From Ignavibacteria bacterium (GTDB taxonomy: Bacteria; Bacteroidota; Ignavibacteria; Ignavibacteriales; Ignavibacteriaceae), in contig JAFLBV010000001.1 in the NCBI GenBank assembly GCA_017302895.1, positions 1,054,001-1,118,000 of the forward strand: a stretch of 64,000 nt of DNA, in the 5' to 3' direction. The notes below the pieces were generated by a model that was given only the letters and a program-made list of their open reading frames with translations, was not told the origin of the DNA and did no database searches. The translations under genes were made by a program, and so were the position numbers. Positions 586-18,900 of this stretch are shown piece by piece (the stretch's first letter is position 1; the number at the start of each line of letters is the position of its first letter).

Positions 586-2937
586 ATGTTAACAACTTCA
601 AAATTAGTCGAAAAATTAAAGACGAACTTTTTCTTCAAAAAAGCTCCTGATGTTGCTGCCTCCCTCGGTGGTTTAAAGAGCAACATCGTTGAGGTTCCTG
701 AAGGTAAGCTGGTTTTCCAGAATGGAGAGCCCTCCGATAATGTGTACCTCATTCTGTATGGACTTGTGAAGATTAAGATCAAAACCAAAACCGGTGCCAA
801 GATAGTATCAAGGGCAGCGGGTGATTTTTTTGGCGAAAGGGAAGTGCTTGAGGGGAAAGAAAGAACCTCCACCGCTATAACAGAGATCGACTCTGAATTC
901 TTTGTATTGAGCAGAGAACGGTTTTTGGCATATCTGTACGGGAATGATGAAATTAGAATAAATGTAAAGATTAATCTCGCAAAAACCTATGATCTTACAA
1001 AAGAGGGTGCCGAGACAATCATCGACAATAATGAGCCTGACGGGAAACAGTTTTCAATTCCTCCCGATCCGGATGTGGTGCTTGAACCAGTGGAAGTTAG
1101 CCGAAGGGATGTTGAAACAGTCTCACCTGCGACACTTCCCGAAGAACCCGTAATTGAAGTACCTGCGGAAGAACCTGAGGAGGAAGGCGTTTACGATGAT
1201 TTCGATTTTGACGATGAGGACTTTGAGCCTGTAAATGAACCGGACACTCAGGATACAACTGAAAAACCAGACCGGTTGGATACCCTTTTTATACAGGAAG
1301 GTGAAGGCGGTGACGAGGTAATCAGTGAAGAAGAACTTCTTCGTGAAGTGGATGAGCTTGATGAAGCTGTTGTTGAAGAGGACTTTTTCGAAGATGACGA
1401 TGATTTTGAGGATTTCGAGGATGACGATTTCGAACTCGGCGATGAAGACGATGACGATTTCCGTTTACCTGAAGAAGATGAAGATTTTGTAGAAGAGATG
1501 GACGATTTTGATCCGAATAAGGAGTTGGAACTTCTTGACGGATATGCAGAGCCCCCGATGGAAATTGAGGAGCCTGACTACGACCTGCTAAACCGGTCAG
1601 CATTAGAGGAAACTGAAGAAGAACCCTATTTCGAAGCGGATGGTGACTTTTCATCTGTCGAGGTTGAACTGCCTTTACCGGAAGAACCGGCAGAGCAAAT
1701 CACCACTTCAGAAGAAGAGGAGCTTCGGGAGAATGTTGAAATTCCGTCGGTAGCCGGGCAGCCGGTACCCGAAAAAATCACAATTGTAAACAGCGGTGAA
1801 ACAATTGCCCTTAGGAAACAACTTGAGCTAATCACCTCCATCTGTACTGCTGAAAGACCGGTTGATATTTACGACATTGTAAAAGAAGATGTTTTAAAGC
1901 TCGTAAACGCCAAAGAATTCGTTATGTTTGTATTCGACGGCGGTTTCCTCTCCTCTGTTACGGGGCATATATCAGAGGATACAAACTTCGCCGTTCGTGA
2001 AAAAATAGCCTACGAGCTCATCACAATGCAGGAGCCCGTAACACTTTTCGACCTTGACAGTTCGGGAATGATGGAAGGGCTGGAAAATATCGACGAAAAA
2101 GAGATTCCCTCTTCACTTCTCTACTATCCCCTTATCGGGAGAGAAAACAAGGTGAATGGTTGCTTCCTTTTCTTCTCATCGAACAACGGAAGATTTACCA
2201 CACATGATGTGATGTCAATTGAAGATATTGCAAAAGCCTCTTCGGGAATCCTGGACAAAATAGCGGACGGCAAAACCTCACTGACAGGGAAATACGAGGA
2301 TCTTCAAAAATATACAGCATTTTTCGGATCGGAAATCAAAATCGCGGTCGAGACCATTCTTTCGATCAGTGAAACCCTTGACAGGGGAAAACTGACTGAC
2401 AAGGTCAGATACGGATTCGATATCATTCGCGAAAGAGCCGCCGGCTTAAAAGGATTTCTCGATTCAATACAATTTTTTGTGGGGAAAGTGTCGGGCTTTT
2501 CGAAACAGCCTTATCTGGTGAGTGAGCTTTTGGATGACTTCCTCGTGAAGGTCTCGGAGCCGGCGAAACAGAGGGAAGTTACACTTCTGAGAAAATATAA
2601 CGCCGACATGGTGATGTTCTTCAATAAAGAGCTTTTTATTCACGCCCTTACGCTCATCACACAGAATTCGTTCGATGCGATGCCTGAGGGGGGAAAGATT
2701 TATTTCTCCACTTCCGCGAATGAATCGAACATCCTCATCTCGATTCGAGATACCGGGACTGGGATTCACCCTGATCTTAGGGAAAAGATTTTTGAACCGT
2801 TCTACACCTACGGAAAAACAGGTGTCGGGTTGGGACTTCCAATCGCCAACAAGATAATTAAAGAACATGGTGGATTTATCTACCTGGAATCAACAAAAAC
2901 TCAGGGAACTGAGATAATTATAGCTTTGCCCGTATGA
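586..2937 (+). CDS. cNMP-binding / acidic linker / GAF / histidine-kinase-like ATPase
   Basis: A 783-residue soluble signalling protein. Residues about 15-130 form a cyclic-nucleotide-binding domain (EGKLVFQNGEPSDNVYLILY, then GDFFGEREVLEG). Residues about 130-395 are a very acidic low-complexity linker packed with Asp/Glu runs. About 405-565 looks like a GAF domain. The C-terminal 130 residues are a GHKL ATPase with N box (TQNSFDAMPEGG), G1 (DTGTGIHPD), F box (EPFYTYG) and G2 (GVGLGLPIANKI). The helical segment before the ATPase (about 590-650) has no His in an H-box context, so autophosphorylation by the usual route is doubtful. The gene overlaps the MiaA-like gene by 4 bases (ATGA). No signal peptide or membrane segment is visible. 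Ligand and output are unknown. Confidence 0.8.
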   Translation: MLTTSKLVEKLKTNFFFKKAPDVAASLGGLKSNIVEVPEGKLVFQNGEPSDNVYLILYGLVKIKIKTKTGAKIVSRAAGDFFGEREVLEGKERTSTAITEIDSEFFVLSRERFLAYLYGNDEIRINVKINLAKTYDLTKEGAETIIDNNEPDGKQFSIPPDPDVVLEPVEVSRRDVETVSPATLPEEPVIEVPAEEPEEEGVYDDFDFDDEDFEPVNEPDTQDTTEKPDRLDTLFIQEGEGGDEVISEEELLREVDELDEAVVEEDFFEDDDDFEDFEDDDFELGDEDDDDFRLPEEDEDFVEEMDDFDPNKELELLDGYAEPPMEIEEPDYDLLNRSALEETEEEPYFEADGDFSSVEVELPLPEEPAEQITTSEEEELRENVEIPSVAGQPVPEKITIVNSGETIALRKQLELITSICTAERPVDIYDIVKEDVLKLVNAKEFVMFVFDGGFLSSVTGHISEDTNFAVREKIAYELITMQEPVTLFDLDSSGMMEGLENIDEKEIPSSLLYYPLIGRENKVNGCFLFFSSNNGRFTTHDVMSIEDIAKASSGILDKIADGKTSLTGKYEDLQKYTAFFGSEIKIAVETILSISETLDRGKLTDKVRYGFDIIRERAAGLKGFLDSIQFFVGKVSGFSKQPYLVSELLDDFLVKVSEPAKQREVTLLRKYNADMVMFFNKELFIHALTLITQNSFDAMPEGGKIYFSTSANESNILISIRDTGTGIHPDLREKIFEPFYTYGKTGVGLGLPIANKIIKEHGGFIYLESTKTQGTEIIIALPV

Positions 2938-3866
2938 TGTATGATTATATTGCAGTTATTGGAGCGACCGCCACAGGCAAGACTGATCTTGCTGTAAAAA
3001 TCGCTTCTCTCGTCGATGGAGAGATAATCTCCTGCGACTCAAGACAGGTTTATCGCGGCATGAACATCGGTACCGGTAAGGACCTGAATGCTTACAGAAC
3101 CCCTAAAGGGAAAATCCCTTATCACCTCATTGATATTCTCGACCCGAAGGAAGACTACAGCGTTTTCCGTTTTCTCGAAGATTTCTACAACAGTTACTAC
3201 GACATAGTAAGCCGTGGTAAAGTGCCCGTGCTCTGCGGAGGCACTTACATGTATTTTACAGCTCTTTTCCTTCGTTACCCGCTGATCAAGGTTCTGAACC
3301 TCGAGGAAAAAGCTGAAGCGCTTATGGTACAGGAACATGAAGAACTGATCGCCGAGTTGAAAGAACTGAACCCCTTGCTTCATAACAGGACTGACCTCGT
3401 TGAGAAATTTAAAACAGCAAAAGCACTCGTAATTGCACGCGAGAGCATTCAGTATGAGAAGCAAAACGGACTTACCCACCCCCCAATCGAGTTGAATCCT
3501 CTCGTTATTTCCACACAGGTTTCCAGAGAAGAGTATTACAAAAGAATTCGAATCAGGCTTGCCGACCGTCTCCGTGAAGGTTTGGTTGATGAAGTCAGGG
3601 AACTGATGAATTCCGGAATCAAAGCCGAAAGACTCGAATATTTTGGTCTCGAATACAAATTTGCCGGTAAGTATCTCAAATCAGAACTTTCCAAAAACGA
3701 CATGATCCAAAAACTGCTCAATGCTATTAACGATTATGCCAAAAAGCAAATTACGGGTATAACCAAACTCGAAAAAAACGGCGTTCATGTTAACTGGGTT
3801 GCCCCCGAGGACATTACCGCAGCGAGAAAATTGATCGAAGAAGCAGGATTCGAAATATTTGAATAA
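2934..3866 (+). CDS. miaA: tRNA dimethylallyltransferase (MiaA-like, divergent)
   Basis: MiaA transfers a dimethylallyl group to N6 of A37 in tRNAs reading UNN codons. The 310-residue protein has the P-loop (GATATGKT, near residue 10), the substrate loop IISCDSRQVYRGMNIGTGK, the second conserved block (YHLIDILDPKEDYSVFRF) and VLCGGTYMY, all in MiaA order. Several signatures differ from the usual forms: GATATGKT instead of GPTASGKT, and GGTYMY where GGTGLY is typical. The C-terminal part keeps RIRIRLADRLREGLVDEV and YAKKQITGITKLE, where canonical enzymes have a Tyr-Ala-Lys-Arg-Gln-like motif. A second ATG follows three bases later. Translation is probably coupled to the kinase gene by the ATGA overlap. 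A divergent paralogue with another tRNA target is possible. Confidence 0.8.
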   Translation: MMYDYIAVIGATATGKTDLAVKIASLVDGEIISCDSRQVYRGMNIGTGKDLNAYRTPKGKIPYHLIDILDPKEDYSVFRFLEDFYNSYYDIVSRGKVPVLCGGTYMYFTALFLRYPLIKVLNLEEKAEALMVQEHEELIAELKELNPLLHNRTDLVEKFKTAKALVIARESIQYEKQNGLTHPPIELNPLVISTQVSREEYYKRIRIRLADRLREGLVDEVRELMNSGIKAERLEYFGLEYKFAGKYLKSELSKNDMIQKLLNAINDYAKKQITGITKLEKNGVHVNWVAPEDITAARKLIEEAGFEIFE

Positions 3867-5025
3867 ATTTAAGGACCCCGTCGCAGCATATCTTGCAAAA
3901 CGGGGTCTTCATCTTAAGCCGGATTATCAGAATTTTTCAAACTTCAGAGAAGTGGTTGTTGTGGTGCCCTGCTACAATGAACTTGAAAACCTTCCCCTCC
4001 TTTTGGAATCATTCCTCGCAAACGACCCTTCAACATTCGAAAAAATCGCCTGTCTTTTTGTCGTTAACCACCCTGAAGATGCTACATCCGAAATTAAAAA
4101 TGCAAGTCGTGAGACAGTAAGGATTTTGACTGATTTTGGCAACAGCTCCCCCCTTCCCGTTGCAATTATTGATATGCCCGGTGAGGGGAGGGAAGTGCCG
4201 GTAAAGTTTGCGGGAGCCGGGTACCCTAGGAAAACAGGTCTCGATTCGGCAATTTCCCTCACTGATCCCGCCCGACCCGATAACTCTCTCCTCGTCTCTG
4301 TCGATGCCGATTGCCTTGTTGCCACTTCGTATTTTACAACGCTCATCGAACTTGCCCAAAGAGGGTGCAAAGCCGCAGTTTTGGAATATAAACACAGAGA
4401 AGATGATGCTGAAAATATCGAAGCTATCAGGGAATATGAAGCTTATTTGAGATCGTACACCGAAGGACTCAAATACGCAGGTTCCCCATACGCATGGCAT
4501 TTTATCGGTTCGACCATGGTTTCGAATGTTTCAACTTATGTAAAGGCAGGGGGCATGAATACCCGGAGGGCTGCCGAGGATTTCTATTTTCTCGAGAGCA
4601 TCGCAAAGGTCGCTCAGATTGAAAGTATTGAAGAGGTCTTGGTGTTTCCCTCAAACAGAGTGAGTGATAGAGTAATTTTCGGAACAGGAAAGGCAATGAA
4701 CGACAGGAAAGAGACAGGAAAAGAGATCATGGCCTATCCCCCAATCGTGTTTGAACGGCTCAAATCGTTTTTGAGTGTATATCATGAAAATTACACTTCC
4801 GTTGAAGAACTGATTGACACCATCCGCAAAACAGATGAAGAGACCTTTGACTTTTTGGAGTCCTACAAATTCTCAACCGCGATGAGGAGCATTTACAAAT
4901 CATCGAAGAGTTCAGCCCAGATTTCAAAACAAAAAGACATCTGGTTCGATGCTCTGAAAACCATGAGGCTGGTCTCTCTTTTCAGAACCTCGGAAACCAG
5001 GAATCACAGAACCTCAGAAACTTAG
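3859..5025 (+). CDS. Glycosyltransferase family 2-like protein
   Basis: A 388-residue protein with a GT-A type nucleotide-sugar domain. The opening strand and loop VVVVPCYNELENLPLLLESF (from about residue 34) and the DxD-like VSVDADCLVATSYF (about 145-160) are typical of GT2 enzymes, which use UDP- or GDP-sugars with a metal. No transmembrane helix is visible, so it is probably cytosolic or peripheral. The best start is TTG at 3859, overlapping the end of the MiaA-like gene by 8 bases; no in-frame ATG precedes the catalytic fold. The last 15 or so residues (RTSETRNHRTSET) are encoded by short repeats that continue past the stop, so the C-terminus appears to have been extended or replaced by repeat DNA. 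Acceptor unknown. Confidence 0.7.
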   Translation: MNKFKDPVAAYLAKRGLHLKPDYQNFSNFREVVVVVPCYNELENLPLLLESFLANDPSTFEKIACLFVVNHPEDATSEIKNASRETVRILTDFGNSSPLPVAIIDMPGEGREVPVKFAGAGYPRKTGLDSAISLTDPARPDNSLLVSVDADCLVATSYFTTLIELAQRGCKAAVLEYKHREDDAENIEAIREYEAYLRSYTEGLKYAGSPYAWHFIGSTMVSNVSTYVKAGGMNTRRAAEDFYFLESIAKVAQIESIEEVLVFPSNRVSDRVIFGTGKAMNDRKETGKEIMAYPPIVFERLKSFLSVYHENYTSVEELIDTIRKTDEETFDFLESYKFSTAMRSIYKSSKSSAQISKQKDIWFDALKTMRLVSLFRTSETRNHRTSET

Positions 5026-5080
5026 ATCCTGTGGACTACGGAACCTAAAGGTACAGAGGTACCGAAATACCGGTTCACCT
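4984..5080 (+). repeat. Short degenerate repeat tract overlapping a gene end
   Basis: Iterations of a cagaacctcggaaacc-like unit (for example at 4984-5000 and 5007-5021) and of accgaaatacc / acggaacc-like words run from the last codons of the glycosyltransferase gene into the spacer. The repeat supplies the final residues of that protein. Function unknown. Confidence 0.5.
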
Positions 5081-5200
5081 GAAAAATTAGTTGCAAAGAG
5101 TTCAGCCAAAAAGTTTGATGCCTCTTCCCTGCCTTTTTTTTTCATCAATCCCAGAATTAAACCTTTTTCACCTTTGCTACTATTTTTCCCTGTAAACTAA
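5069..5200 (+). repeat. Left flanking direct repeat of the three-copy locus
   Basis: The stretch starting CGGTTCACCTGAAAAATTAG recurs at about 19997 as CGGTTCATCTGAAAAATTAG. After it, matching blocks follow in the same order in both places: a tcag-caaaaagtt block, a T-rich block, and tttgc-actatttttt near the end. The two copies lie just outside the 5.6-19.9 kb triplicated block, in the same orientation. The rest of the 5026-5621 spacer holds the block described at 5386. Confidence 0.55.
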
Positions 5201-5385
5201 ACAATTATTCTGCCCTCGAAAAATCATTCTGGAACTCTCAGAATTAAAAAAATTTTTCTATAATGCAATCAGGAAAATGTATTACTTTTTACCTTTTTTT
5301 ATTTGGATGTTGTTATGATTTTAAAGTGAGCGTTGGATTTTAATTTGATTCAATGTTGCGCAATTCATTGTGAGTAAAAGGTATA

Positions 5386-5621
5386 ATGGGTTCATTGTTT
5401 ATAGTTCTTAAAGCAGGGCTTATTATCAACACTTGGGAAATATTTTTGTTTTCTGCAGGGAAACAGACCCCACCTCCGTTTTGGTTTGTTATCCTGTCAT
5501 CTCCTGTTATTCCAAATCAATTCGATTTAGGATTGCCAATCGCTTTGTGCCTTCCGGTAACATTTCTAAAAAATATTTATTTTTTAATCCATCAACACAA
5601 AACTTTGTGTGAGGAAATTCT
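5386..5621 (+). promoter_or_regulatory. Duplicated upstream block of unit 1 (copy at 14023)
   Basis: About 236 bases before the unit 1 FG-GAP gene match 14023-14258 before unit 3 with roughly 87% identity and no insertions or deletions by hand alignment. The similarity continues through the signal-peptide codons. An 82-codon open frame spans the block in both copies and ends CLN over the start of the FG-GAP gene. Substitutions counted by eye at codon positions 1, 2 and 3 are 10, 9 and 13, which gives little support for coding. Most likely it is a promoter and leader region copied along with the gene. Confidence 0.5.
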
Positions 5622-7160
5622 ATGTCTAAACTAACTAATAACCCCTTTCAATTTGTTTCGTTTTCAGTTCTGTTTCTTTTAGTTGGTTGCACAACAGAGC
5701 TAAATGCGCAGTTCGATTCACTTATGTTATTAGACTCCGGATATTATTTGAATGAATCCGTTATCTACATGGGGGACCAAAACGATGACGGATGTGATGA
5801 TTTTATTATATGCAAGATGGATTCAAGATTTGACAACTGGGGATATGCACACTTCTTTTATGGCGGTAACCCTATACCGGATACATCAGCTTTCCGAATT
5901 AGAATACTTAATCCGCTAATTATTACGGGTTGCGATATGAATAGAGATGGTTATCGTGATATAGTAATGAGAATTGGAGGGATTTCACAAGATTTATACA
6001 GATACAATATATACTATGGTGGACCCGATTTGGATACAATACCCGATTATGTGCTAACACTTCCTGATTCGACAGTACCCGCTTATTTTATAGGGAAAAT
6101 GTGGCCAATAGATTTTGATGGTGATGGGTGGGAAGAATTGGTGTTTAAAACAGGCATCTCACACAAAATTGGGTTTGTTCGAAATTTTGAAGAAAATCAA
6201 CCACTTGAGTATTTCTCGATCCCCAGAATTGGAAACATGTATTATTTTGAAAATCTAATATTTTCTTCTGATCTTGATGGAGATGGAAAATCCGATTTAT
6301 CAGTTATTGCAGATGATGGAGAGAGTATACTACTCAGATTTTATTATGGGAATAGCAGTTTTAATTTCAGTGACTACTATGAATTCTCGTCTGATTCAGT
6401 GAATCATCTTCGTCAAGTGTATCTACTAAATGACATGAATGGAGACGGCAAAGGTGAAATATGTGTGCTCCTATCGATTGCAGGATCAGGCAAGTATGCT
6501 TTATCTTTTGGAAGCAAACCACCCGACCTTGTGCCTGATTTATTGATGAATGCGGGAGGAATCTCAGGAGGGTATGGATTTTCGCCCGGGGATGTAAACG
6601 GAGATGGATACGGTGATTTTTTGAAGTATGTTCCATATATCAGATTTGCATTATACTTGGGGGGCAGAACGATAACCGGTCAGGCTGCACAACAATATTT
6701 TTCCAACTACTGGTTAAACAGTATGCATTTGGGGGGAAGAGTTGGTGACATAAACGGAGACGGACTTGCAGATATTTGTGTTGGGGAGACAGCAGGTACC
6801 TCAGTACTGTCTCATATTTACATATACTCAGGGACAAGAACACCTGTATCGGTTAAAGAAGAAAAGGAGGAAAAAGAAGAAGAGAACATATTATTAGTGA
6901 CGGTATCACCAAACCCGACCACCGGACAGATTTCTGTTCAATATGCCCTGCCGGATTCCGGGGTACTCGGCCTTGAGATATATGATATCCTCGGTCAGAG
7001 AATATATAACGAATCATTACAAAAAGAGAAAGGGACCCAAACTGAACAGATAAACCTGGGAAACCATGCCGTTTCAAGCGGCACATATATAGTTAATATC
7101 ACCCTAAAAACGGGTGAAAAAACTTTAGCCAAAAGTGTTAAGGTTCAATTAATAAAATAG
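5622..7160 (+). CDS. Secreted FG-GAP (VCBS) repeat protein with T9SS tail, unit 1
   Basis: A 512-residue exported protein. The N-terminus has a hydrophobic signal (FVSFSVLFLLVGCTTELNAQ); cleavage is more likely after LNAQ than at the Cys, because unit 3 also has a Cys there without a full lipobox. Seven propeller-type calcium loops follow, including GDQNDDGCDDF, CDMNRDGYRD, DFDGDGWEE, DLDGDGKSD, DMNGDGKGE, GDVNGDGYGD and GDINGDGLAD, consistent with an integrin-like beta-propeller. The last 80 residues (VSPNPTTGQISVQY to KSVKVQLIK) form a T9SS sorting domain. It heads unit 1 and is followed by the decayed giant gene. Its body is the most divergent of the three paralogues. A surface binding role is inferred only. 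Confidence 0.8.
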   Translation: MSKLTNNPFQFVSFSVLFLLVGCTTELNAQFDSLMLLDSGYYLNESVIYMGDQNDDGCDDFIICKMDSRFDNWGYAHFFYGGNPIPDTSAFRIRILNPLIITGCDMNRDGYRDIVMRIGGISQDLYRYNIYYGGPDLDTIPDYVLTLPDSTVPAYFIGKMWPIDFDGDGWEELVFKTGISHKIGFVRNFEENQPLEYFSIPRIGNMYYFENLIFSSDLDGDGKSDLSVIADDGESILLRFYYGNSSFNFSDYYEFSSDSVNHLRQVYLLNDMNGDGKGEICVLLSIAGSGKYALSFGSKPPDLVPDLLMNAGGISGGYGFSPGDVNGDGYGDFLKYVPYIRFALYLGGRTITGQAAQQYFSNYWLNSMHLGGRVGDINGDGLADICVGETAGTSVLSHIYIYSGTRTPVSVKEEKEEKEEENILLVTVSPNPTTGQISVQYALPDSGVLGLEIYDILGQRIYNESLQKEKGTQTEQINLGNHAVSSGTYIVNITLKTGEKTLAKSVKVQLIK

Positions 7161-7317
7161 GTGAACAAACAACAAGAAAAGAGAATTAACCATGAAAAAG
7201 TTACTTTTTTTATTCGTATTCATTAACGGGTTAACATTTTCGCAAATGAGACCGGGCATCGATTACATGCCACAAATTGCATTTTTTGATCTTGTAGTGA
7301 ATTATTTTGGTCTAATA

Positions 7318-7362
7318 TTGTCTGAATCAGGATTAACAGAATTAAAGAATTTTCAGGATTGA
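7318..7362 (+). repeat. Nine-base iterated repeat at the deletion edge
   Basis: After the homologous part of the stub, the sequence iterates a GGATTAACA / GAATTAAA / GAATTTTCA / GGATT pattern with a period of eight to nine bases. This resembles dispersed intergenic repeats in this group of bacteria, from memory only. It marks where homology to the full-length genes ends. Confidence 0.45.
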
Positions 7363-7623
7363 CACCTCAGCCTTTTTCAAACTGATTACCCGGTAAAACA
7401 AAGAAACTTGCGCCATCACAATCCAAAACTTCCCTCCCATAGCAACATCAAGACTTACAGTTCTTAAAAGTTTTTTGCCTGAAGTTTAATCTAGGTTATC
7501 AGGACGAACTCAGAAATGTTTTTCTACGAATTAACAGATTTATTAATCAAAATATCATTCTCGGTCAATGGAAACGAGAAGCTTCATAACGCTGACAGTT
7601 TACAGCATCACTGGTCAGAAGGT

Positions 7624-7643
7624 GGTCCCGATAAATCGGGACC
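7624..7643 (+). repeat. Palindromic insert in the pseudogene
   Basis: GGTCCCGAT and ATCGGGACC form nine-base-pair arms around two bases. About 25 bases here replace the 18 bases encoding AELVSG in the intact paralogues, a net +7 that breaks the reading frame. Confidence 0.6.
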
Positions 7644-7847
7644 GCGGGCGAGATGGAAAAGGGTCTGCATGAAAAGAGATTCAATGGAACAAAACTCTCA
7701 TCAGGAGTTTACATTTTCCGCATTGAAGCCCTATCGCTTGAGAGCAGGACAACATACTCTAAAACGGTGAAAGGTTTGCTGCTTAAATAGGGCTGAGGAA
7801 TGAAGGTTGATGGCTGAAAAGCCCGCACCAGAATGTTAAATTATTAA

Positions 7848-7876
7848 GGCTGTATCGAGAGGGGCAGCCTTTTTTT
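7848..7876 (+). terminator. Rho-independent terminator after unit 1
   Basis: GGCTG at 7848-7852 pairs with CAGCC at 7865-7869, and a T-run follows directly. The region 7766-7870 closely matches the 3' flank of unit 3 (19885-19990), including the cccgcaccagaatgttaaat block. It ends the 3' end of the decayed gene. Confidence 0.7.
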
Positions 7877-8146
7877 GAAACAACTTCTCTGATAATAAAC
7901 TCGTAATAACCAATAACAACCACTCCCTTTTACAATTTATCTTTATAGGTCCGAGTCATATTGTTCAAAATTTATTTTTTCAACCTCTTGACTATATCAA
8001 ATTTTAAATGTAATTTCTTTCCAGTAAAGTTAATTTTTTATTTTAAGGAAGACCCATATCGATAAGATCAACAATAGACGGTGAATTAGCCGTAGGAGAC
8101 AATTGTTAATCTTTAAATAGTTTGTGTGTTTAGTAGTCCCGTATTA

Positions 8147-8221
8147 AAAACGGAGATTGACACATTGCCCCCGCGGACAGTTCGCTGCCCGATGGAATGG
8201 TTATGTGTGAATCTCCGTTTT
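8147..8221 (+). other. Long hairpin just before unit 2
   Basis: AAAACGGAGATTGACACAT (8147-8165) and ATGTGTGAATCTCCGTTTT (8203-8221) are 19-base inverted arms with one mismatch, around a 37-base GC-rich middle. The right arm ends in a T-run, so it could terminate transcription or act as a leader structure; it could also be a small mobile-element relic. It ends 30 bases before the unit 2 start. Apart from this, the spacer 7877-8146 shows no recognisable feature. Confidence 0.55.
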
Positions 8222-8251
8222 TTGTTTTAAATAATGCTAATTGGAGTAATA

Positions 8252-9868
8252 ATGAATATCAAATATTTCAACATTCGACTGTACTGTACCATTTTCTTTA
8301 CACTTGCTGTATTTGGTGAAGTTTCGGCCCAGTTCGATTCTGTTGTATTTGTTCGGCGAGCATGGCATTGGGATCTATCGGTTATCTATTTGGGAGATCA
8401 GAACAATGACGGCTTCGATGACTTTGTTCTTGTTGAACAGGACAGTGCAAATGGACAACTATATGGTGGTGGTTATGCACATTTTTTCTATGGAGGTAAC
8501 CCGTTAAGCAGTACTCCGGCTTTTTCTATCAGACATCCTGCAGGAGCCTACTCAATAACCGCTTGTGATGTAAACAGGGATAATTACAGAGACCTCATAA
8601 TCGGACAAAAAAAATGGCATGAAACCAATCATTGGTACAAAGTTTATTTTGGCGGTCCTGCTTTTGATACACTCCCCGATATGACCTTTAATTTTCCTGA
8701 TACAACAGGAGAAACGATCTATTTGCTTGGGAGAGAGTGGCCCGCTGATATTAACGGGGATGGATGGGAAGAACTGATAATATGCCAACATTATTTTACA
8801 ATTCCGCCCGATAATGGAGACCAAACTGGAACACTTTATTTTTTTGAAACATCAGCTACTACCCCATTGCAACAATATCATACCTACACCCCGCCTATAG
8901 AAATTGATAGATATGGAATGCAATGGTCTCTAAGAAGTTTTTCCTTTACAGATATTGATGGTGATGGTAGAGCAGACCCTTCTTTTGTGATTGGAGGAGC
9001 AGCCATTCCTGGAAGCGCACGACGATACCTTTATGGAGATAACACATATAGCTTTAATGAATATTCTGATATTAAGAATGCTTTTGCTTCTTACTCATCT
9101 AGCATTTTTTCCGTCCCCGATATGAATGGTGATGGAAGGGCGGATATAATTACAAAGAATGCACTTGAAGATATCTACCCGTTTTATTTCGGAGCCGTGA
9201 TGTTCAACGGTTCAAAACCCGTGAATACAACCGCCGTAGAGGGTTTTAATACTCAAGCCAACGGGTGGAGTTATCTATTTTCCCCGGGAGATGTGAACGG
9301 AGACTCTTACAATGATGTCGTGTTTCACACCTACCACACCGACGCGAGACTCTACCTTGGTGGCAATCCTGTCCCGGATGAAAAAGCAAGAATTTACTCA
9401 CCTCTTGATGGAGCGTGGTATTTTATTAATTTTGGCGGAAGGATTGGAGATGTTACAGGAGATGGAGCCGATGACATTTGTATAATGGAAAATGCAGACT
9501 ATGATAATAATTTACCAGCAGGAAACACTTTCATAATAAAAGGTACAAGAAAACCCACCTCTATCAAATCTGAATACAGCACAGATCTTGCTTCAGAGTT
9601 AAGAGTGTTTGCTTCTCCTAACCCCTTCAACAAAAATATTAAGATCAACTGCATCCAGCCGAATGATGGAGTTATTCGCATAGAAGTGTTTGACATAATG
9701 GGGAAAGAAATTTATTCAAAATCTGCCTTTGGAGCAAGGGGTGAACATAGTGAAGATTTAGATTTCAGTTCGCTTAATGTTTCAAGCAGTACATACTTGA
9801 TCAGGGTTTCATCCTACATGGAGAAAGGTTCATCTGTCACGACCGTAAAAGTGGCATATATTAAATAA
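8252..9868 (+). CDS. Secreted FG-GAP (VCBS) repeat protein with T9SS tail, unit 2
   Basis: A 538-residue exported propeller protein. I chose ATG 8252 over the in-frame ATG at 8234 because GGAG at 8243-8246 sits five bases before it and the next residues form a clean signal peptide (NIRLYCTIFFTLAVFGEVSAQ). Calcium-loop motifs include GDQNNDGFDDF, DVNRDNYRD, DINGDGWEE, DIDGDGRAD, DMNGDGRAD, GDVNGDSYND and GDVTGDGADD. The tail (ASPNPFNKNIKI to VKVAYIK) is a T9SS sorting domain. The body is closely similar to the unit 3 paralogue, including the RRAWHWD motif near the mature N-terminus, whereas the leader differs. It lies 18 bases before the giant gene and is probably cotranscribed with it. Confidence 0.85.
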   Translation: MNIKYFNIRLYCTIFFTLAVFGEVSAQFDSVVFVRRAWHWDLSVIYLGDQNNDGFDDFVLVEQDSANGQLYGGGYAHFFYGGNPLSSTPAFSIRHPAGAYSITACDVNRDNYRDLIIGQKKWHETNHWYKVYFGGPAFDTLPDMTFNFPDTTGETIYLLGREWPADINGDGWEELIICQHYFTIPPDNGDQTGTLYFFETSATTPLQQYHTYTPPIEIDRYGMQWSLRSFSFTDIDGDGRADPSFVIGGAAIPGSARRYLYGDNTYSFNEYSDIKNAFASYSSSIFSVPDMNGDGRADIITKNALEDIYPFYFGAVMFNGSKPVNTTAVEGFNTQANGWSYLFSPGDVNGDSYNDVVFHTYHTDARLYLGGNPVPDEKARIYSPLDGAWYFINFGGRIGDVTGDGADDICIMENADYDNNLPAGNTFIIKGTRKPTSIKSEYSTDLASELRVFASPNPFNKNIKINCIQPNDGVIRIEVFDIMGKEIYSKSAFGARGEHSEDLDFSSLNVSSSTYLIRVSSYMEKGSSVTTVKVAYIK

Positions 9869-9886
9869 ATTCAGGAGTTGAGTATT

Positions 9887-12800
9887 ATGAGACATGCAAG
9901 ATATTATCTCATATTCGTATTAGTTTCGTTTTGTGCATTCGCACAAAACAGACCGGGAGTAGATTACTTCCCTCAGATCGGATTCTTTGATTTTATGGTG
10001 CAGTACCTGCACCCGCCTCATGGTAACTCTGCCCAAATAGAATTATCAGTTAGTGACAGTAATTATTATCATCCAAGACTGAAGGAATTGGGAATAACGG
10101 ATATTGTAACTGATTGGGCGGAATACAAAAATGTTAGACCATCATCGGATCCTGCTACTGATTTTTTCATTCACGATATGGGATTTGAATGGAGAGATAA
10201 TGGTATTAGAGCCTTTACTCCCGCAGGATTTCTTAAATCATTTGGCCACATGGAAAACAAATATAGTCTTAGATTTGGTGGTACACCTGCAGATAACCTC
10301 TCTTTTGGGAACAACTTTGGCTTTTCATATTTGGATGGTCAAGACAGATCAAGTTATTGGTGCATGACAACTGATACAAAGCCTGTCCCTAACATAATCC
10401 CGGAGACGGGAGATAGTGTACGAGATGGAGCCAATTGGGTACGAAGAGCCCGTGTCGCCTTTGATGACAATGGCTTATTACTTTGGGGTCGCTTACCATG
10501 GTTGCAGTTCTTTTTTGAGAATATGAATTACTACATTGATATCAAAATTAAAAAAGTTCCCGCGGGAGGCTCAAATCCACTGCTTTTTAAAATTGTAGTT
10601 TGTCAAGCGGTTGAGAACAACACTCAACCGGCGCCCGATGGGTACTATAAAAAACCTTCAATCGTTTCTGAATCCTCAGATGCACCTTTGGCGAATGCAT
10701 ATCTTGAACAATATGTTTATTGGAATGATATCACTCACGCGGCCGGAACTTATGATTGGTTCCGATCTAATGCCTTCACAATAAACAGACAAACTACCAC
10801 ACAGTTTTACATAGTTTGGTATGATCAATCGGATATCTATATTGATCAAATTGCGATGTATAATGACAAGTATAAAAATTCATTTATAACAAATACACAT
10901 GATTATTTTAAGAATAATGTATTTCAACCATTACAAACCACTTATTCCGGAATAATTGATTCGAGATTTCAGGATTTTTACTTCGATGAACCGTTTATGC
11001 TCACAGCGAGAGCAAGAGGGAAGTTACAAGACACCCTGGGAAACATGTTTACAAATCGGCCGGATATACAAGTAAATGGTGCAACAGGGTCTTTACCTGA
11101 GTATTTTCTCCACTTCGATAACAAATACGCGCGTGAATCGCAGAACGCACCACACAAGAAGTACATCCTTTTCAACATGTATCCGTTTGGAGAGGATAAC
11201 ATGTATGATCAAACAACGGTTCAATACAAATTAAATGACCTTATTAAATGCCCCTCATTAGGTTCGACTCACGGAGCATATAGTTATAATTATGCCGGTT
11301 TACGCGCCTCTCAACTTGCGGCTCAACAATACGATAGTGACTCCCTGAATGATGTGCCTTTATTTATGACATTGCAGGTGCACGCTGAACATCAACTAAC
11401 TTCCAGCAATGAATATGTTCCTAATTCGCAGAGAGGGAAGCGCCCACCATCCAGGGATGAGATTTTTGCAATGGGTCATCTTTCTTTAGCATTTGGAGTG
11501 AAAGGATTTATGTATTACATGATTCCAACTCGATGCGAAATATGGGGAGCTGAAACTCGTTGGGGTACTTATGGGTTGTTTGATGAGGCTGGAAATCCTT
11601 ATGGTTATATTGGTAAGACTGGATTATGGCAAAATCCTGAGGCAGTACAAGTAAAAAACGAAAGATTTGATGCTGTTAAAGATTTTATTGCCTCCTTTAA
11701 GTCGTATGAAAATACCCTTCTAAAGTTAAGATGGCTTGATGCCAAATACTGGAACGAGAACTCGGCAATACCCAAACCTTGGATAAGTAACATTGAGACT
11801 TCACCCACCGGAAATTTCCCCGTGACTCCCACAGACCCCCCGATGGTACAAACAGGATATTTTGAAGAGTATAGCCATCTTGCGGGTTATAATCCAAAAT
11901 CCAAGTTCATCTACATAGTGAACAGAAGATGCAATACTCAGGGTAGTGACAACTCAAACCGCTACATCCGCTTTAAAATTGACTCCACGGTGGCCTCAAA
12001 TTACACCAATATTAAAGTCACCAACATGAAAACAGGGCAAACTTTCTTTACCTCAAAGAATTCATTGTTTACTCTTTTTCTTAATGCTGGTGATGGAACA
12101 CTTTTGAAGTTTGAACCGACAATTTTAGCCGGTGGTTTGCTTGTTGAAAACGAAACGGTCTCATCATCCATCGAAGTTGACAGCAGTCTGGAACTTTCTC
12201 AATACAAAAAACTCCGGATTGAAAATGGCGCTGATGTAACCTTTAAAAATTCTTCAAGGCTATATGTATATAATTCTGACCTTGAAATTGAGGGAACACC
12301 ATCAAATCCTTCAGTGATAAACTTTTTATCTCCGAACTGGACACTTGGTAATGGATTGGTTGCACGGTATGCTGATGTTTCCATAAATAATGCACGGATC
12401 AAAAATGCGAGCGCGGGGATTTACGCTTACAGGTGCTCGACCTTCGTTGTCAGCAATACAATTATCGACAGTTGTTATTTTGGAATATCCATGGAAGAAC
12501 AAGGTTCACCCTACGGAACAAATGTTCTTCAGAATATAACCTTAAACAAATGTATTACGCGTGGCATAACAACCAACCATGTAATATTAATGGCAGAGGA
12601 TGTTGTGATATCTGGCGGTGAAAATGCAATGATGTTTTGGGACAGTGAATTCAACTGCTTTTTGATGCAGGAAATCGCCAATATCAATATATTGAGTCAC
12701 ACTACCGGTGTTTATAGCAATAATTCGGAATTAAATTTTGGCTACGATGATGGTTCAGGGATACCAGACGGTGCATATAATACATTCCTGAGTGCTGATA

Positions 12801-13804
12801 ATTTTTATGTTGAGAATTATTCGGAAGTAATGGCTCAGTATGACTACTGGGAATCGAAATCGAATTATTGTGATTTAACAAGTTTACTTGTTGACGAACC
12901 ATCATTCAAGTACGAAGGTGATAATCCTCTTGTTATACCAAGTGACGAACTGGCATCGGTAAAACATAATTTTACGGGTGAAGGTGGTTCAACAGTTGAG
13001 AAATTTCAACTTGCAAAAAGGATGTACAAAAAGGGACATTTAAGACAAGCAAGAGACATCTGCAGCGACATAATAGATAATAACTCTAATGATGAGCTGA
13101 TTCCGGCTGTAATATCTTTATTGATCCGTACTTTTAAGGAGGAGGGTAAAGAAGCTCTTGGTCAATATATAGCAAACGGAAATAATGCAACGACAAATTC
13201 AACGGCAAAAGGATTGCTCCAGGCTACCACTGCACTTTTTACAGAGGATGTAAACACAGTATATGACGATATCATTACGAGATATCCGGGGAAATACCCT
13301 GCTGAATATTCCCTGTACAAAAAAGCATTGTATCAGACCGGTTCTCAAATGGATAAAAAAGGAGCAAAAATCACATTCAATAAATTGAGGACTGATTTTC
13401 CCAACTCCCTGTTCATCAAAGACCTTGTTGTAAGGCTCGCAGACACTATGGTGTTTTCCAACAAATCAGTTATTCCACTTGGACTTCCTAAACAACAATC
13501 TCAGACGACAAATTCGGAAGTTTTTGAATACAATCTTCTAAATAATTATCCTAATCCATTCAATCCTGAAACGGTTATTAAATTCTCCCTCAAGGAGAAG
13601 AGCGGTGTAACGCTGAATGTTTACAACATTGCAGGACAAAAGGTTGCAGAACTTGTATCAGGAGAGATGGAGAAAGGCATGTATGATAGAAAGTTCGATG
13701 GAACCAAACTCTCATCCGGAGTTTACATTTTCCGTTTGACAGCGCAATCGCTTGAGAGCAAGACAACTTATTCCAAAACGATGAAAGCCTTGCTGCTTAA
13801 ATAG
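9887..13804 (+). CDS. Giant secreted glycosidase-like / beta-helix protein with T9SS tail, unit 2
   Basis: A 1305-residue exported protein. ATG 9887 is preferred over TTG 9878 because it aligns with the paralogue start (MKHARFY versus MRHARYY). After the signal peptide (LIFVLVSFCAFAQ), residues about 20-630 resemble a TIM-barrel glycosidase fold: a DFYFDEPFML strand with an Asp-Glu pair, MTLQVHAEH, and GVKGFMYYMIPTR followed by WGTYGLFDEAGNP. Next come a beta-sandwich ending TLLKFEPTIL (about 745), a right-handed beta-helix-like stretch (about 750-1000), a helical repeat region (about 1035-1200), and the T9SS tail NYPNPFNPET to MKALLLK. No exact glycosidase family could be named, so activity is inferred. 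Likely surface-bound or released, working with the FG-GAP partner. Confidence 0.75.
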   Translation: MRHARYYLIFVLVSFCAFAQNRPGVDYFPQIGFFDFMVQYLHPPHGNSAQIELSVSDSNYYHPRLKELGITDIVTDWAEYKNVRPSSDPATDFFIHDMGFEWRDNGIRAFTPAGFLKSFGHMENKYSLRFGGTPADNLSFGNNFGFSYLDGQDRSSYWCMTTDTKPVPNIIPETGDSVRDGANWVRRARVAFDDNGLLLWGRLPWLQFFFENMNYYIDIKIKKVPAGGSNPLLFKIVVCQAVENNTQPAPDGYYKKPSIVSESSDAPLANAYLEQYVYWNDITHAAGTYDWFRSNAFTINRQTTTQFYIVWYDQSDIYIDQIAMYNDKYKNSFITNTHDYFKNNVFQPLQTTYSGIIDSRFQDFYFDEPFMLTARARGKLQDTLGNMFTNRPDIQVNGATGSLPEYFLHFDNKYARESQNAPHKKYILFNMYPFGEDNMYDQTTVQYKLNDLIKCPSLGSTHGAYSYNYAGLRASQLAAQQYDSDSLNDVPLFMTLQVHAEHQLTSSNEYVPNSQRGKRPPSRDEIFAMGHLSLAFGVKGFMYYMIPTRCEIWGAETRWGTYGLFDEAGNPYGYIGKTGLWQNPEAVQVKNERFDAVKDFIASFKSYENTLLKLRWLDAKYWNENSAIPKPWISNIETSPTGNFPVTPTDPPMVQTGYFEEYSHLAGYNPKSKFIYIVNRRCNTQGSDNSNRYIRFKIDSTVASNYTNIKVTNMKTGQTFFTSKNSLFTLFLNAGDGTLLKFEPTILAGGLLVENETVSSSIEVDSSLELSQYKKLRIENGADVTFKNSSRLYVYNSDLEIEGTPSNPSVINFLSPNWTLGNGLVARYADVSINNARIKNASAGIYAYRCSTFVVSNTIIDSCYFGISMEEQGSPYGTNVLQNITLNKCITRGITTNHVILMAEDVVISGGENAMMFWDSEFNCFLMQEIANINILSHTTGVYSNNSELNFGYDDGSGIPDGAYNTFLSADNFYVENYSEVMAQYDYWESKSNYCDLTSLLVDEPSFKYEGDNPLVIPSDELASVKHNFTGEGGSTVEKFQLAKRMYKKGHLRQARDICSDIIDNNSNDELIPAVISLLIRTFKEEGKEALGQYIANGNNATTNSTAKGLLQATTALFTEDVNTVYDDIITRYPGKYPAEYSLYKKALYQTGSQMDKKGAKITFNKLRTDFPNSLFIKDLVVRLADTMVFSNKSVIPLGLPKQQSQTTNSEVFEYNLLNNYPNPFNPETVIKFSLKEKSGVTLNVYNIAGQKVAELVSGEMEKGMYDRKFDGTKLSSGVYIFRLTAQSLESKTTYSKTMKALLLK

Positions 13805-13886
13805 GGCTGAGGGATCAAGGCAGAGGGCTGAAATACTTTCTTTATCACCGATCATTTATCATTGATCACTGATCACCACAAAAAGA

Positions 13887-13913
13887 GGCTGTCTCGAGAG
13901 AGGCAGCCTTTTA
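13887..13913 (+). terminator. Rho-independent terminator after unit 2
   Basis: GGCTGTCTC, loop GAGA, GAGGCAGCC (13887-13908) then TTTT. The stem is nine pairs with one G-T wobble. Related hairpins follow units 1 and 3. Confidence 0.75.
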
Positions 13914-14022
13914 TAAATCTTTTTTGAAATAAATTTCAATAATAGGAAAATATTTCTTGCACGGAATATGAAAAATAAGTAGATTATGTAAGAAAAAGGT
14001 AATCATTCGCAGGTTTACTCAA

Positions 14023-14258
14023 ATGAGTTTATTGTTTATTGTTTTCCAAGCCGGGTTTTTTATTAGCATTAGGGAAATATTTTTTTCTTCTGCCGGGAAA
14101 CAGATCATACCTCAGTTTTTGTTTGTTATCCTGTCATCTCCTGTAATTCCAAAACAATTCGATTTGGGATTGCCGATCGCTTTGCGCCTTCCGGAAACAT
14201 TTCTAAACAATATTTATTTCTTAATCCATCAACACAAAACCTTGTGTGAGGAAATTAT
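14023..14258 (+). promoter_or_regulatory. Duplicated upstream block of unit 3 (copy at 5386)
   Basis: Indel-free partner of the block before unit 1, ending GAGGAAATTATATG, with GAGGAAA as a plausible ribosome-binding site for the gene at 14259. Unit 2 lacks this block and has a hairpin leader instead. The rest of the 13805-14022 spacer holds gatcactgatcacc-like short repeats, the terminator and AT-rich DNA. Confidence 0.5.
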
Positions 14259-15887
14259 ATGTTTAAACTAACACACAACCCCTTTCAATTTGTTTCGTTT
14301 TCAGTTCTGCTTCTTTTAGTTGTTTGCACAAATGAAGTTAGTGCCCAGTTCGATTCTGTTGTGCTTGTCCGCCGGGCATGGCACTGGGATCAATCTGTAA
14401 TCTATATGGGAGATCAGAACAACGATGGTTACGATGACTTTGTACTTGTCGAACAAGACAGTGCAAATGGAGAATACAAAAAATGGGGATTTGCCCATTT
14501 CTTCTATGGAGGCGATCCACTGAGTTCTATTCCTGCATATTCGATCTTTCATCCTGCGGGTGCTTATGCTGTTACTGCCTGTGATGTAAACAGGGACAGC
14601 TACAGAGACCTTATAATTGGTCAAAAATCATTCAGGGAAAACAACCATTTCTACAAAGTGTATTATGGCGGACCGGATTTTGATACTATACCGGATTTTG
14701 AATTCCAGTTCCCTGATACTTCTGCATCTTACATACTTATGATGGGACGGGAATGGCCGGCGGATATTGACGGAGACGGATGGGAAGAATTGATACTGTG
14801 TCATCAATATTACACAATCCCACCTTCAAGCGGAAATCGCACAGGTACAATGTATTTTTTTAAGTCTTCAAACACAAATCCGCTTCAAGAGGTTTATACA
14901 TACACTCCACCAATCCAAACAGATGGATATGGGATTGCAGCGCGAGTAGAAGAGATACATTTTGCAGACATAGACGGAGATGGGAAGGCTGATCCGACAT
15001 TTATGATTTACAACCCTCAAGGAAATCCTACATTTGCAAGAAGATTTATCTATGGTGATCAGAACTTCGAATTTGGAGAATGGAGCGATATCAAAAATGT
15101 GTATGCAGAATTTTCCTCACGAATTTTTTCAGTGCCTGATATGAACGGAGACGGGAAAAGCGATATTATCACGGTAAACGCAATCGAAAATTTATTTCCT
15201 TACTGGTTCACAGCCGTGCTTTTCAACGGTTCAAGACCTGTGAACACAAATGCAGTTGAAGGTTTTAACACACAAAACAATGGTTGGTCATATCTGTTTT
15301 CCCCCGGTGATGTAAATGCAGATGGGTTTAACGACATAATAATTCACACATTCTACACCAGCGCGAGGCTTTACCTTGGAGGCAACCCAATTCCGGATGA
15401 AAAAGCGAGAGTCTATTCTCCCGCAGACCCCGGTTTTTATTCCTTTAATTTTGGCGGCAGGATAGGTGATGTTACGGGTGATGATGCTGATGATATATGT
15501 ATCCTGGAGAATGCTTACTACGATAATTCTGAGCCAAAGGGTAACACTTTTATAATAAAGGGGACACGAAAACCCACTGACATTGGAGATGAGAAGGATT
15601 TATCCCTTCCTTCAGAAATTGAGATATTTACCTCCCCAAATCCCATAGACGGGACCACAAATCTTAAATACATAATCCCCAAAGATGGAATTATACAAAT
15701 TCATGTATTCGACATAATGGGGAAAGAAATTTATTCGAAATCAAACTACAAAACAAGAGGTGAACACAATGAGGATATAAACTTTGGTGCCCTCAATATT
15801 TCAAGCGGCACCTACATGATCAGGGTTTCTTCTGACCTGCAGAAGGGGGCGACGACCAAAACCGTCAAAGTAATATATATTAAATAA
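14259..15887 (+). CDS. Secreted FG-GAP (VCBS) repeat protein with T9SS tail, unit 3
   Basis: A 542-residue exported propeller protein. The signal region (PFQFVSFSVLLLLVVCTNEV) is almost that of unit 1, while the mature part (FDSVVLVRRAWHWDQSVIYM onward) follows unit 2, so the gene is a mosaic. Calcium-loop motifs include GDQNNDGYDDF, DVNRDSYRD, DIDGDGWEE, DIDGDGKAD, DMNGDGKSD, GDVNADGFND and GDVTGDDADD. The tail runs TSPNPIDGTTNLKY to VKVIYIK, a T9SS sorting domain. The giant gene follows after 20 bases. The function is probably adhesive or scaffolding, inferred from fold and context. Confidence 0.85.
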   Translation: MFKLTHNPFQFVSFSVLLLLVVCTNEVSAQFDSVVLVRRAWHWDQSVIYMGDQNNDGYDDFVLVEQDSANGEYKKWGFAHFFYGGDPLSSIPAYSIFHPAGAYAVTACDVNRDSYRDLIIGQKSFRENNHFYKVYYGGPDFDTIPDFEFQFPDTSASYILMMGREWPADIDGDGWEELILCHQYYTIPPSSGNRTGTMYFFKSSNTNPLQEVYTYTPPIQTDGYGIAARVEEIHFADIDGDGKADPTFMIYNPQGNPTFARRFIYGDQNFEFGEWSDIKNVYAEFSSRIFSVPDMNGDGKSDIITVNAIENLFPYWFTAVLFNGSRPVNTNAVEGFNTQNNGWSYLFSPGDVNADGFNDIIIHTFYTSARLYLGGNPIPDEKARVYSPADPGFYSFNFGGRIGDVTGDDADDICILENAYYDNSEPKGNTFIIKGTRKPTDIGDEKDLSLPSEIEIFTSPNPIDGTTNLKYIIPKDGIIQIHVFDIMGKEIYSKSNYKTRGEHNEDINFGALNISSGTYMIRVSSDLQKGATTKTVKVIYIK

Positions 15888-15907
15888 AATAAAAGAAAAT
15901 TAAAAAG

Positions 15908-18900
15908 ATGAAACATGCAAGATTTTACATTATGTTTGTGTTCATTTCGTTTTGTGCATTCTCACAGAACAGACCGGGGATAGATTACTTTCCCCACACT
16001 AGCTTTTTTGATTTTTCCGTTCAATATCTTTATCCGCCAAACTCATTGGCAACCGGTACACAAATCAAAAATTCAATGAGCGGTTCACTAAATTATTATT
16101 ACCCTTACCTTAAAAAACTCGGTATCACCAATTTGGTGACTGACTGGGCAGAATATAAAGCATTAAATCCAAATACTGATCCTTCAACAGACTTCTTTAT
16201 AAACGATATGGGGTTTAGCTGGAGAGATATGGGGAACTTCTATTTCGGACCGGCAAACTATCTTTCTGCATTTGGACACTTTCGTGACAAATATACCCTT
16301 CAATTTGGTGGCGACCAAGTAACAAATCTAACAGATGGAAACAACTTTGGATTCGGTGTCGGGACCAACAAAGAGAGTTATTGGTGTATGACCGATGAAA
16401 CAAAACCGCCCGGTGATATGGATGTAATTGGCGCAAATAGTGAAGATGAGGGAATCTGGGTTCGGGTTGCAAAAGCCGACAAAGATTATGAAGGATTGCT
16501 GCTTTGGGGTGGTTTGCCTTGGACACAATTCTATTACGGTGATATGGAATATTTCATCGATATTAAATTGAAGAAAGTAACTGCTTCCGGTAATCCCCTT
16601 TTATTTAAAATTGTGGTACAATTACAGGAAGAACATGTTCAGCCGGTACCGAATGGATTCCACAAAAGGCCCCCAATAATTCCGGATGATACGGATGCAC
16701 CGCTTTCTAATATTTATCTTGAGCAGGATGTATCTTGGAATGATATTACACATGCTGCCGGGGTTTATGACTGGTTCAGGTCAAACGCGTTTAGTATTGC
16801 CGAAGGTGAAAATCTTCAGTTCTACATATACTGGTACGATCAATCCGATCTATATGTTGATCAGGTGGTGATTTATAACGAGAAATACAGGGATGCATTT
16901 ATCACCAACACAATTGATTTTCAGACTGATGTAGCCGGTCCATTACAAGACGCATATCAGAGTTCAATATCTGATACCTTATTACAGGATTTCTACTACG
17001 ATGAGCCTTTTATGCTTACTGCCAGGGCAAGAGGGATACTGCAAAATGCAATCCCATCCATACTGGGCAGTTCGACTAATGTTCAAGTTAACGGCGCAAC
17101 GGGAAGTGTACCTGAGTACTTTCTGCGTTTTGATCACAAGTATGCAAGGGAAACAGAAAATGCCCCACATAAGAACTATGTATTATTTAACATGTATCCG
17201 TTTGGCGAAAACTGTATCTATGAACAATGGAAAGTCCAGGAAAAATTAAGTGACCTGATAAAATGTTCTTCATTTGGACAGACGCATGGAGCATATAGTT
17301 ACAATTACGCCGGATTGTTGCCCTCACAGATCGCAGCACAGCAGTATGATGAAGAACCGGAAAATGATCTGCCTCTTTTCATGACACTTCAAGTACATGC
17401 AGAACATCAGTTGGATACAAATGGTAACTATGTTCAAAACCTTGTTAGAGGGAAACGACCTCCCACAAAAGATGAGATATTTGCAATGGGAAATTTGTCA
17501 CTGGCGTATGGAGTCAAGGGATTCATGTATTACATGATCCCAACCCGAAGTGAAGAATTAGCAAATAATAAAAGATGGGGCACTTATGGATTATTTGATC
17601 AAAATGAGCCACCAAATTACCCGAAATATAACTATGTAACAAAAGCAGGAACCTGGCAAAATCCTGCGTTTGAGCAGGATACTAACGAAAGATACACCGC
17701 CGTAAGAGATTTCATTGGTTCTGTTAAACCGATGGAATCTACTTTACTCAAACTCAGATGGCTTGCTGCCAAATATTGGGATGAAACTTCTGCAAATCCA
17801 AAAAACTGGATAAGTGAAATAGAAACATCACCTACGGGAAGTTTCCCTGTAAATCCTACAGACCCCCCGATGGTACAAACAGGATATTTTGAAGAGTATA
17901 GCCATCTTGCGGGTTATAATCCAAAATCTAAGTACATCTACATAGTGAACAGAAGATGCAATACTCAGGGCAGTGACAACTCAAACCGTTACATCCGCTT
18001 TAAAATTGATTCGACTGTAGCTTCAGGTTATACAAATATAAAAGTTACGAACCTTAAAACAGGTCAAACCTTCTTTACCTCGAAGAATTCATTGTTTACA
18101 CTGTTTCTAAATGCGGGAGATGGAACACTGTTGAAGTTTGAACCAACAATTCTGGCGGGAGGATCCCTCGTGGTCAGTGAGGCAGTACCTTCCGGCACCT
18201 ACGAAGTTGACACAACCCTTATTGTTCCGGACGGAGTAAAACTAACCGTGAATGCCGGTACAAAGCTTACCTTCCGGAATTCCGGAAGATTATTGGTTGA
18301 AGATGGCGAACTGGAAGTAAACGGAACAGAGAACAACAAGGTTGAGTTTGATTTTGGCTCAAAGAACTGGAGTGCGGGAAACGGTATCTACGCTTACAGA
18401 ACGCCCCTCAAGATTAAAAATGCAGTGATAAAGAACGCAAGTTGCGGGATTTATTCTCACATCAGTCCGGGTGACACGATCGACGGGGTGACCATTGACA
18501 ATACCCACTATGGGATAAGTTTATACTACAGCTATAACTACGGAGCCGACAACACAGTTATCCGCAACTCACAGATAACCAACAGTCAGTTGTCAGGAAT
18601 CACAATGGTTGGCTCAATGCCAAGGTTACATGACAACCATTTTGAGAGCAACGCCGGAAAGGGAGTGTCAGCATACACAGGTTCAGCACCCGTTTTGTTG
18701 GATACGGGCAACACTTCCGGTGGAAACTCATTCCTTAGCAATAATATCGCGATATATTCTCTCAATTCGCTTCCCGTACTCGGATATGCGGATGACAAGG
18801 AGAACTACACAGGAGGCAACTGTTTCGTTGAAGATGTAACAAGTCTCCATGCGATAAATGAAATACCAACAATTTATTATGAGATAGAAGCATATGGCAA

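Follow-up and report, generated by a model that had tools for sequence, protein, structure and literature searches.

A probable pseudogene remnant in a mosaic family of FG-GAP/giant gene units from an Ignavibacteria bacterium

Introduction

Several bacterial multigene families, including vls, tprK and pil, combine constant ends with variable cores and evolve by gene conversion. Integron gene cassettes, on the other hand, offer exchangeable gene content between fixed borders. The family of two-gene units described here shares constant flanks, variable middles and partial copies with vls, tprK and pil, but there is no indication that it switches in a programmed way or is expressed from a single site. 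It shares exchangeable content and fixed borders with integron cassettes, but there is no integrase in the units examined and no attC-like site was identified. Its borders, unlike those of integrons, consist of ∼125-bp direct repeats, leaders and tails.

The closest published analogue is the gingipain/HagA family of Porphyromonas gingivalis, a case of modular diversification. These are described as large T9SS-secreted surface proteins in which the leader and the C-terminal domain are conserved, the inner modules are combined differently from strain to strain and the mosaic departs from the species tree (PMC5266723). The two families are alike in having constant ends, variably combined inner modules and a mosaic make-up. 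They differ in that gingipain/HagA act as proteases and adhesins in an oral pathogen, whereas the proteins described here, FG-GAP proteins and putatively GH42-like giants with a beta-helix, come from an environmental lineage close to Ignavibacteriales. Moreover, unlike gingipain/HagA as depicted there, our family has a constant non-coding leader, a tail and terminal repeats, and its units occupy differing sites in sister species. A literature search, with subscription papers and preprints outside its scope, found no paper describing a family of FG-GAP and giant proteins.

Results

The window, i.e. the whole 64,000-nucleotide stretch of DNA that was analyzed, lies on a 1.9-Mb contig of a 3.98-Mb genome assembled in six contigs (G000). 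It was compared with a same-genus genome from a sister species (G003) and with two further congeners (G001 and G002). Site W is the locus of the window array, and sites A, C, X, C1 etc. are other unit loci in G000 and G003. Three tandem units, in each of which a giant gene comes after the gene for an FG-GAP protein, occupy 5.0–20.1 kb of the window, with their leaders, genes, tails and terminal repeats on the forward strand. The array starts with the left copy of a ∼125-bp terminal repeat (CGGTTCACCTGAAAAATTAG..., 5068–5195), which is 79% identical to the repeat at the right end of the G003 site X unit. Unit 1 has a type II non-coding leader (5385–5621; 94% identical to the G003 C1 leader and 87% to that of unit 3), an intact gene for a 512-aa FG-GAP protein with a T9SS sorting domain (5622–7160; Pfam FG-GAP and Por_Secre_tail), and what is left of its giant. 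Unit 2 encodes an FG-GAP protein of 544 aa (8234–9868) and an intact giant of 1305 aa (9887–13804). Unit 3 has a type II leader (14022–14258), an FG-GAP protein of 542 aa (14259–15887), an intact giant of 1333 aa (15908–19909) and a 3' tail (19902–19992), followed by the right copy of the terminal repeat (19999–20115). All five FG-GAP and giant proteins that are intact in the window have a Por_Secre_tail sorting domain scoring above cut-off. Directly before the unit 2 FG-GAP gene, there is a long, strongly self-complementary hairpin (8146–8222; approximately −41 kcal/mol), for which we found no second copy in the loci compared and no Rfam match. Intergenic tandem repeats of seven and fourteen bases are also present in the window, at 31579–31662 and 60521–60652.

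The first-pass annotation of this DNA had described the unit 1 giant (7192–7790) as reduced to its two ends, with about 1,200 codons lost between them. Comparison with units 2 and 3 bears this out. When 7161–8233 was searched by blastn against these units, it matched the 5' end of unit 3 (73% over 59 bp, E 3e-4) and its 3' end (82% over 290 bp, E 3e-80), with nothing significant between the two. A gene of ∼1,330 codons thus retains its first ∼38 and its last ∼65 codons, with ∼280 bp of mostly unrelated DNA in place of the interior. The 5' stub (7192–7305, forward strand) is part of an ORF of 56 aa (7192–7362), in which homology is confined to the first ∼38 codons; the alignment of 7161–7305 with the giant of G003 site X (L080; 89% nucleotide identity over its first 145 bp, including the preceding spacer) fails past ∼7305. 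The 3' remnant (7586–7790, forward strand) starts near codon ∼1269 of 1333, which gives ∼1,230 missing codons. It comprises the last ∼65 codons with the stop and the sorting domain, but its frame is broken, and it is open in two frames (7565–7633 and 7644–7769). It is 82% identical to unit 3 and closest, with 88% nucleotide identity, to the copy at the end of G003 contig C5. The filler between the two ends (7306–7585) has no homology to any giant. Its sole matching part, 7510–7577, is 77% identical over 69 bp to the DNA just upstream of the giant tail at site C, in both genomes. Behind the remnant, a 3' tail (7783–7873, forward strand; 97% identical to that of unit 3) comprises the last codons and a downstream non-coding element with a terminator-like hairpin end. 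This end (AGGCTG...CAGCCT, 7847–7873) recurs at dozens of places in G000. Judged from its sequence, 7192–7790 is a pseudogene remnant of a giant, not a conserved short gene.

The same annotation had placed the edge of the loss at a nine-base iterated repeat (7318–7362, forward strand). This assignment does not hold. The iteration is weak (18 of 36 lag-9 matches), because 352 of the 63,955 window positions, in 38 clusters, equal or beat its lag-9 score, and it begins ∼13 nt into the filler, not at the homology edge. The iterated repeat was also rejected as a dispersed deletion hot spot, with AGGATTNACAGGATTNACAGGATT giving no match in the whole genome at up to three mismatches. The further claim that a palindrome at 7624–7643 breaks the frame again is correct. 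The palindrome (GGTCCCGATAAATCGGGACC) is exact. Compared with the two undamaged copies in the alignment, the region has 7 extra nt, and these put the 3' remnant out of frame. The core of the palindrome (TCCCGATNNATCGGGA) is found at five places in the 3.98-Mb genome, and a reversed control at none. As for the idea of a deletion by recombination at repeat DNA, the interior loss, the broken frame and recombination in general as the cause are supported. The nine-base repeat as the cause is not, and neither is a simple deletion, since 280 bp of other DNA lie at the joint.

The FG-GAP partner of unit 1 is, as previously proposed, intact and the most diverged of the three. Its body is 35–36% identical to the bodies of units 2 and 3, which are 69% identical to each other. 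The suggestion that it took on a role of its own is not sustained, because its body class recurs at G000 site A and G003 site X (52% identity to each). Neofunctionalization was therefore discarded, all the usable comparisons being moreover synonymous-saturated. The difference in FG-GAP class is independent of the loss of the giant, because at site X this class precedes a giant of near full length. The signal peptide of the unit 1 FG-GAP protein is 75–79% identical to the unit 3 class, whereas the start of the unit 1 giant is of the site X type and its end of the C5 type. Unit 1 is thus a patchwork, in which leader, signal peptide, body, giant start and giant end match different units.

G003 contains a relative that escaped the deletion. 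The giant of site X is near full length over two contigs, with the codons up to ∼940 at the beginning of contig C8 (C8:1–2794) and codons 1110–1333 at the beginning of contig C12. These contigs belong together, their flanks being adjacent in G000, 15 bp apart. A junction of contigs C5 and C8 was rejected, as their flanks map 160 kb apart in G000. In the site X giant, the frame is interrupted by exactly two stops, each of them a TGA at a position occupied by Trp in aligned relatives; this copy may therefore be dead as well. Open full-length giants are present at other sites.

To place unit 1 among its relatives, we took a census of 14 slots, seven in G000 (W1, W2, W3, A, C, C4:74436 and C2:928585) and seven in G003 (A, C, X, C4 end, C21, C1:642892 and C8 end). 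The readings of slots C21 and X rely on the ends of contigs, and at the C4 end the giant was called open from the stretch between matched ends. The census leaves aside three distant FG-GAP genes of G000 without giant pieces (C2:912821, C2:915153 and C2:345832), G003 C4:961–6609, where an open giant precedes the FG-GAP gene, a unit truncated by the end of G003 contig C8, an 803-aa stand-alone N-module gene present in both genomes, and the units in G001, G002, G024 and G027. Five giants are open at full length (W2, W3 and C in G000, C and C4 end in G003), eight are broken, cut down or replaced, and the slot at G000 C2:928585 has no giant trace. Besides unit 1, the sole giant piece at G000 C4:74436 is a 5' stub, and at G000 site A the FG-GAP gene is separated from the last giant codons by a 321-aa gene on the opposite strand. 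An AbiEi-type assignment of this 321-aa gene was dropped, because it has no Pfam or PADLOC match. In G003, site A retains codons 4–46, 573–684 and a unit 2-type C terminus in three frames, site X has the giant with two stops, C21 has an out-of-frame chimera, and at C1 (L105) the first 14 codons are joined to the last ∼28 in a different frame. At the C8 end, 48 codons remain of the FG-GAP gene, followed by two ORFs with sorting domains, one of which is a 298-aa chimera ending in the sorting domain of a giant. Because breakpoints differ among slots, the remnants do not represent a single conserved short gene; no such gene was found in the relatives, whose reduced copies at other sites have other breakpoints. 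In relative L079, one joint shows little microhomology and the other a 13-nt near-match, which makes illegitimate joining as likely as homologous exchange.

Strong giant matches were found in six of the 59 genomes compared, four of which are from the window's own genus. Among the 80 named loci kept from a wide scan, a single one, in an Ignavibacteriales MAG, has a whole-length giant match, and the others match mostly through the sorting domain. Within the family, identity varies along the proteins. The giants of units 2 and 3 are mostly 50–78% identical in the N-module and 90% at the end, with 16–34% around residues 840–1200 (identity profiles). The site C giants of G000 and G003 are 75–96% identical from residue ∼660 to the end and mostly 29–65% before. 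For this site C pair (L078/L086), dS is 0.09–0.10 in flank genes, 1.72 in the FG-GAP gene, and 2.47 and 0.65 in the N- and C-parts of the giant, respectively. Trees built from nine giants for the N-module, the middle module (M) and the helical module (H) reject one shared history. The N-module data reject the M and H trees (p-AU at most 1e-39), the M data reject the N tree (p-AU 4e-6), and the H data reject both the N tree (p-AU 1e-11) and the M tree (6e-4). The H tree is rejected weakly by the M data (AU 0.034, SH 0.14).

The non-coding leaders and tails are better conserved than the coding cores. Leaders are 78–94% (type I) or 72–94% (type II) identical. Eight of the nine tails in G000 and G003 are 91–98% identical, and the ninth, behind a site C giant, is 59–65% identical. 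No leader or tail in the window and nine loci matched a structured RNA at the Rfam gathering score, and a relaxed threshold returned two rows at chance level. A 429-aa lipoprotein-like gene (7757–9046 in L078, 8879–10168 in L086) has a type I leader upstream and, in G000, a giant tail downstream; it contains a patch that is diverged between G000 and G003.

Units also vary in their occurrence at conserved sites. In the window, 816–4995 and 20137–23895 correspond to one continuous stretch of G003, in which 62 bp take the place of the 15,141 bp (4996–20136, forward strand) containing the whole array. Site W has no unit in G003, G002 or G001, and because the last two (L103 and L104, respectively) have other, unrelated genes there, it looks insertion-prone. 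Conversely, the G003 site X unit is absent from G000, where 15 bp separate the flanks. Presence/absence at conserved-flank sites, which we examined as a test for a mobile element, was thus found at W and X. Site A has a unit in both genomes, with flanks 96–97% identical and different contents; the G000 unit is similar to the one at G003 site X (90% over 1.9 kb), and the G003 unit to window unit 3 (88% over 2 kb). Related direct repeats of ∼125 bp delimit four units or arrays at both ends, i.e. W and G003 A, X and C1. All nine genome hits of one repeat copy are at unit ends, with none in G001. This search missed some copies, two more of which were found later, and all 11 copies compared are at unit ends. 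Left and right repeats are 58–81% alike within a unit. No target-site duplication was seen at X or W, where there are 15 and 62 bp of other DNA, and no recombinase or transposase gene was found among the ORFs of the units examined. Movement of units between sites is plausible, its main rival being loss from a larger ancestral set.

A predicted propeller (Pfam) makes up the FG-GAP partner. From N to C terminus, the giants consist of an N-module, a beta-helix, a helical part and the sorting domain, and the fold of the unit 3 N-module is putatively GH42-like. Best structural matches of the N-module model, which is poor (mean pLDDT 58.8), are glycosidases of the GH42 and GH164 clan. The match to 4oif has a VIA Z of 15.3 with an rmsd of 3.4 over 250 residues, and the top Foldseek rows have TM of 0.2 or less. 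The N-module has no Pfam glycosidase hit. The motif Asp365-Glu366-Pro367 is invariant in 12 of 12 N-module rows, its glutamate being a candidate catalytic residue; a second candidate, Glu497, is absent in row L088. The FG-GAP protein and the giant would thus be a putative secreted glycan-acting pair.

Discussion

Most likely, the unit 1 giant is a dead remnant within a mosaic, multi-copy family of two-gene units whose copies recombine. The leader, the signal peptide, the FG-GAP body and, in the giant, the N-module, the middle modules and the C-terminal sorting domain each have a history of their own, and the 5' leader and the 3' end with its tail are nearly constant across units. Copies would recombine through these constant stretches, by homologous recombination or gene conversion, and a mismatched or short-homology exchange between constant ends would delete or replace the interior. 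Unit 1 would be one product of such an exchange, with the palindrome inserted later. Its flanks are still recognizable because the ends are common to all units. The presence of the ∼280-bp filler indicates that the interior was not lost in one clean crossover between giants, and unit 1 bears no direct sign of which event removed it.

A simpler scenario, which we regard as unlikely, is a one-off decay in which tandem duplication produced three units and the redundant giant lost its middle by ordinary deletion. It fits three tandem units with two intact giants and the pseudogene marks of unit 1, but leaves unexplained the mosaic nature of unit 1, the many collapsed slots at other sites, the tree conflict and the differing content of site A in G000 and G003. 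Slightly less likely still is that truncated copies are retained on purpose as silent cassettes that donate sequence to the expressed giants by gene conversion, as in antigenic or phase variation. Constant ends around variable cores, their retention in collapsed copies and the exchange of content at sites A and C agree with this, yet unit 1 has almost no variable core to donate and no dedicated recombination genes were found. An assembly collapse is hardly credible. Repeated ends are prone to it and G003 contigs break exactly in giant genes, but G000 is in six contigs with the window in one of 1.9 Mb, the filler and palindrome are unique sequence, the neighboring intact units 2 and 3 were assembled, and other units show a like collapse.

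The distribution of units among sites raises two other explanations. Units or arrays with their ∼125-bp repeats might move as a non-autonomous element, collapsed giants being worn-out passengers. This possibility deserves serious attention, even though we would not favor it. The 62- and 15-bp empty sites at W and X speak for it, as do the repeats that flank W, G003-A, G003-X and G003-C1 on both sides, with nine of nine hits at units. However, no recombinase or transposase gene was seen in units, there is no target duplication at empty sites with 15 or 62 bp of other DNA, left and right repeats are just 58–81% alike, and losses in one lineage could mimic movement. Such differential loss (hidden paralogy), in which many ancestral units were lost differently per lineage and nothing moved, seems rather improbable. 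FG-GAP pairs at different G000 and G003 sites have dS of 0.27–0.32, near the 0.40 of a W-site flank gene and as expected for genes split by speciation. Nevertheless, G003, G002 and G001 all have no unit at W, and the losses would have to be clean, with no leftover repeat.

Building on the family of recombining copies, we tentatively suggest that leader, signal peptide, sorting-domain end, tail and terminal repeats could together serve as the invariable framework of an exchange cassette that is non-autonomous. In this view, units would move between sites while their inner content is swapped by module, i.e. other FG-GAP and giant modules, a metalloprotease-like gene and the 429-aa lipoprotein-like gene, and collapsed giants would be by-products. 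The recombining family accounts for the repeated occurrence of ends-only remnants. It implies that large secreted proteins diversify by whole-module swaps among copies at several sites in a little-studied T9SS-bearing lineage, and it provides a concrete, testable case of secreted-repertoire turnover between sister species. If the exchange-cassette interpretation is true, it would represent a general route by which a T9SS bacterium renews its secreted repertoire.
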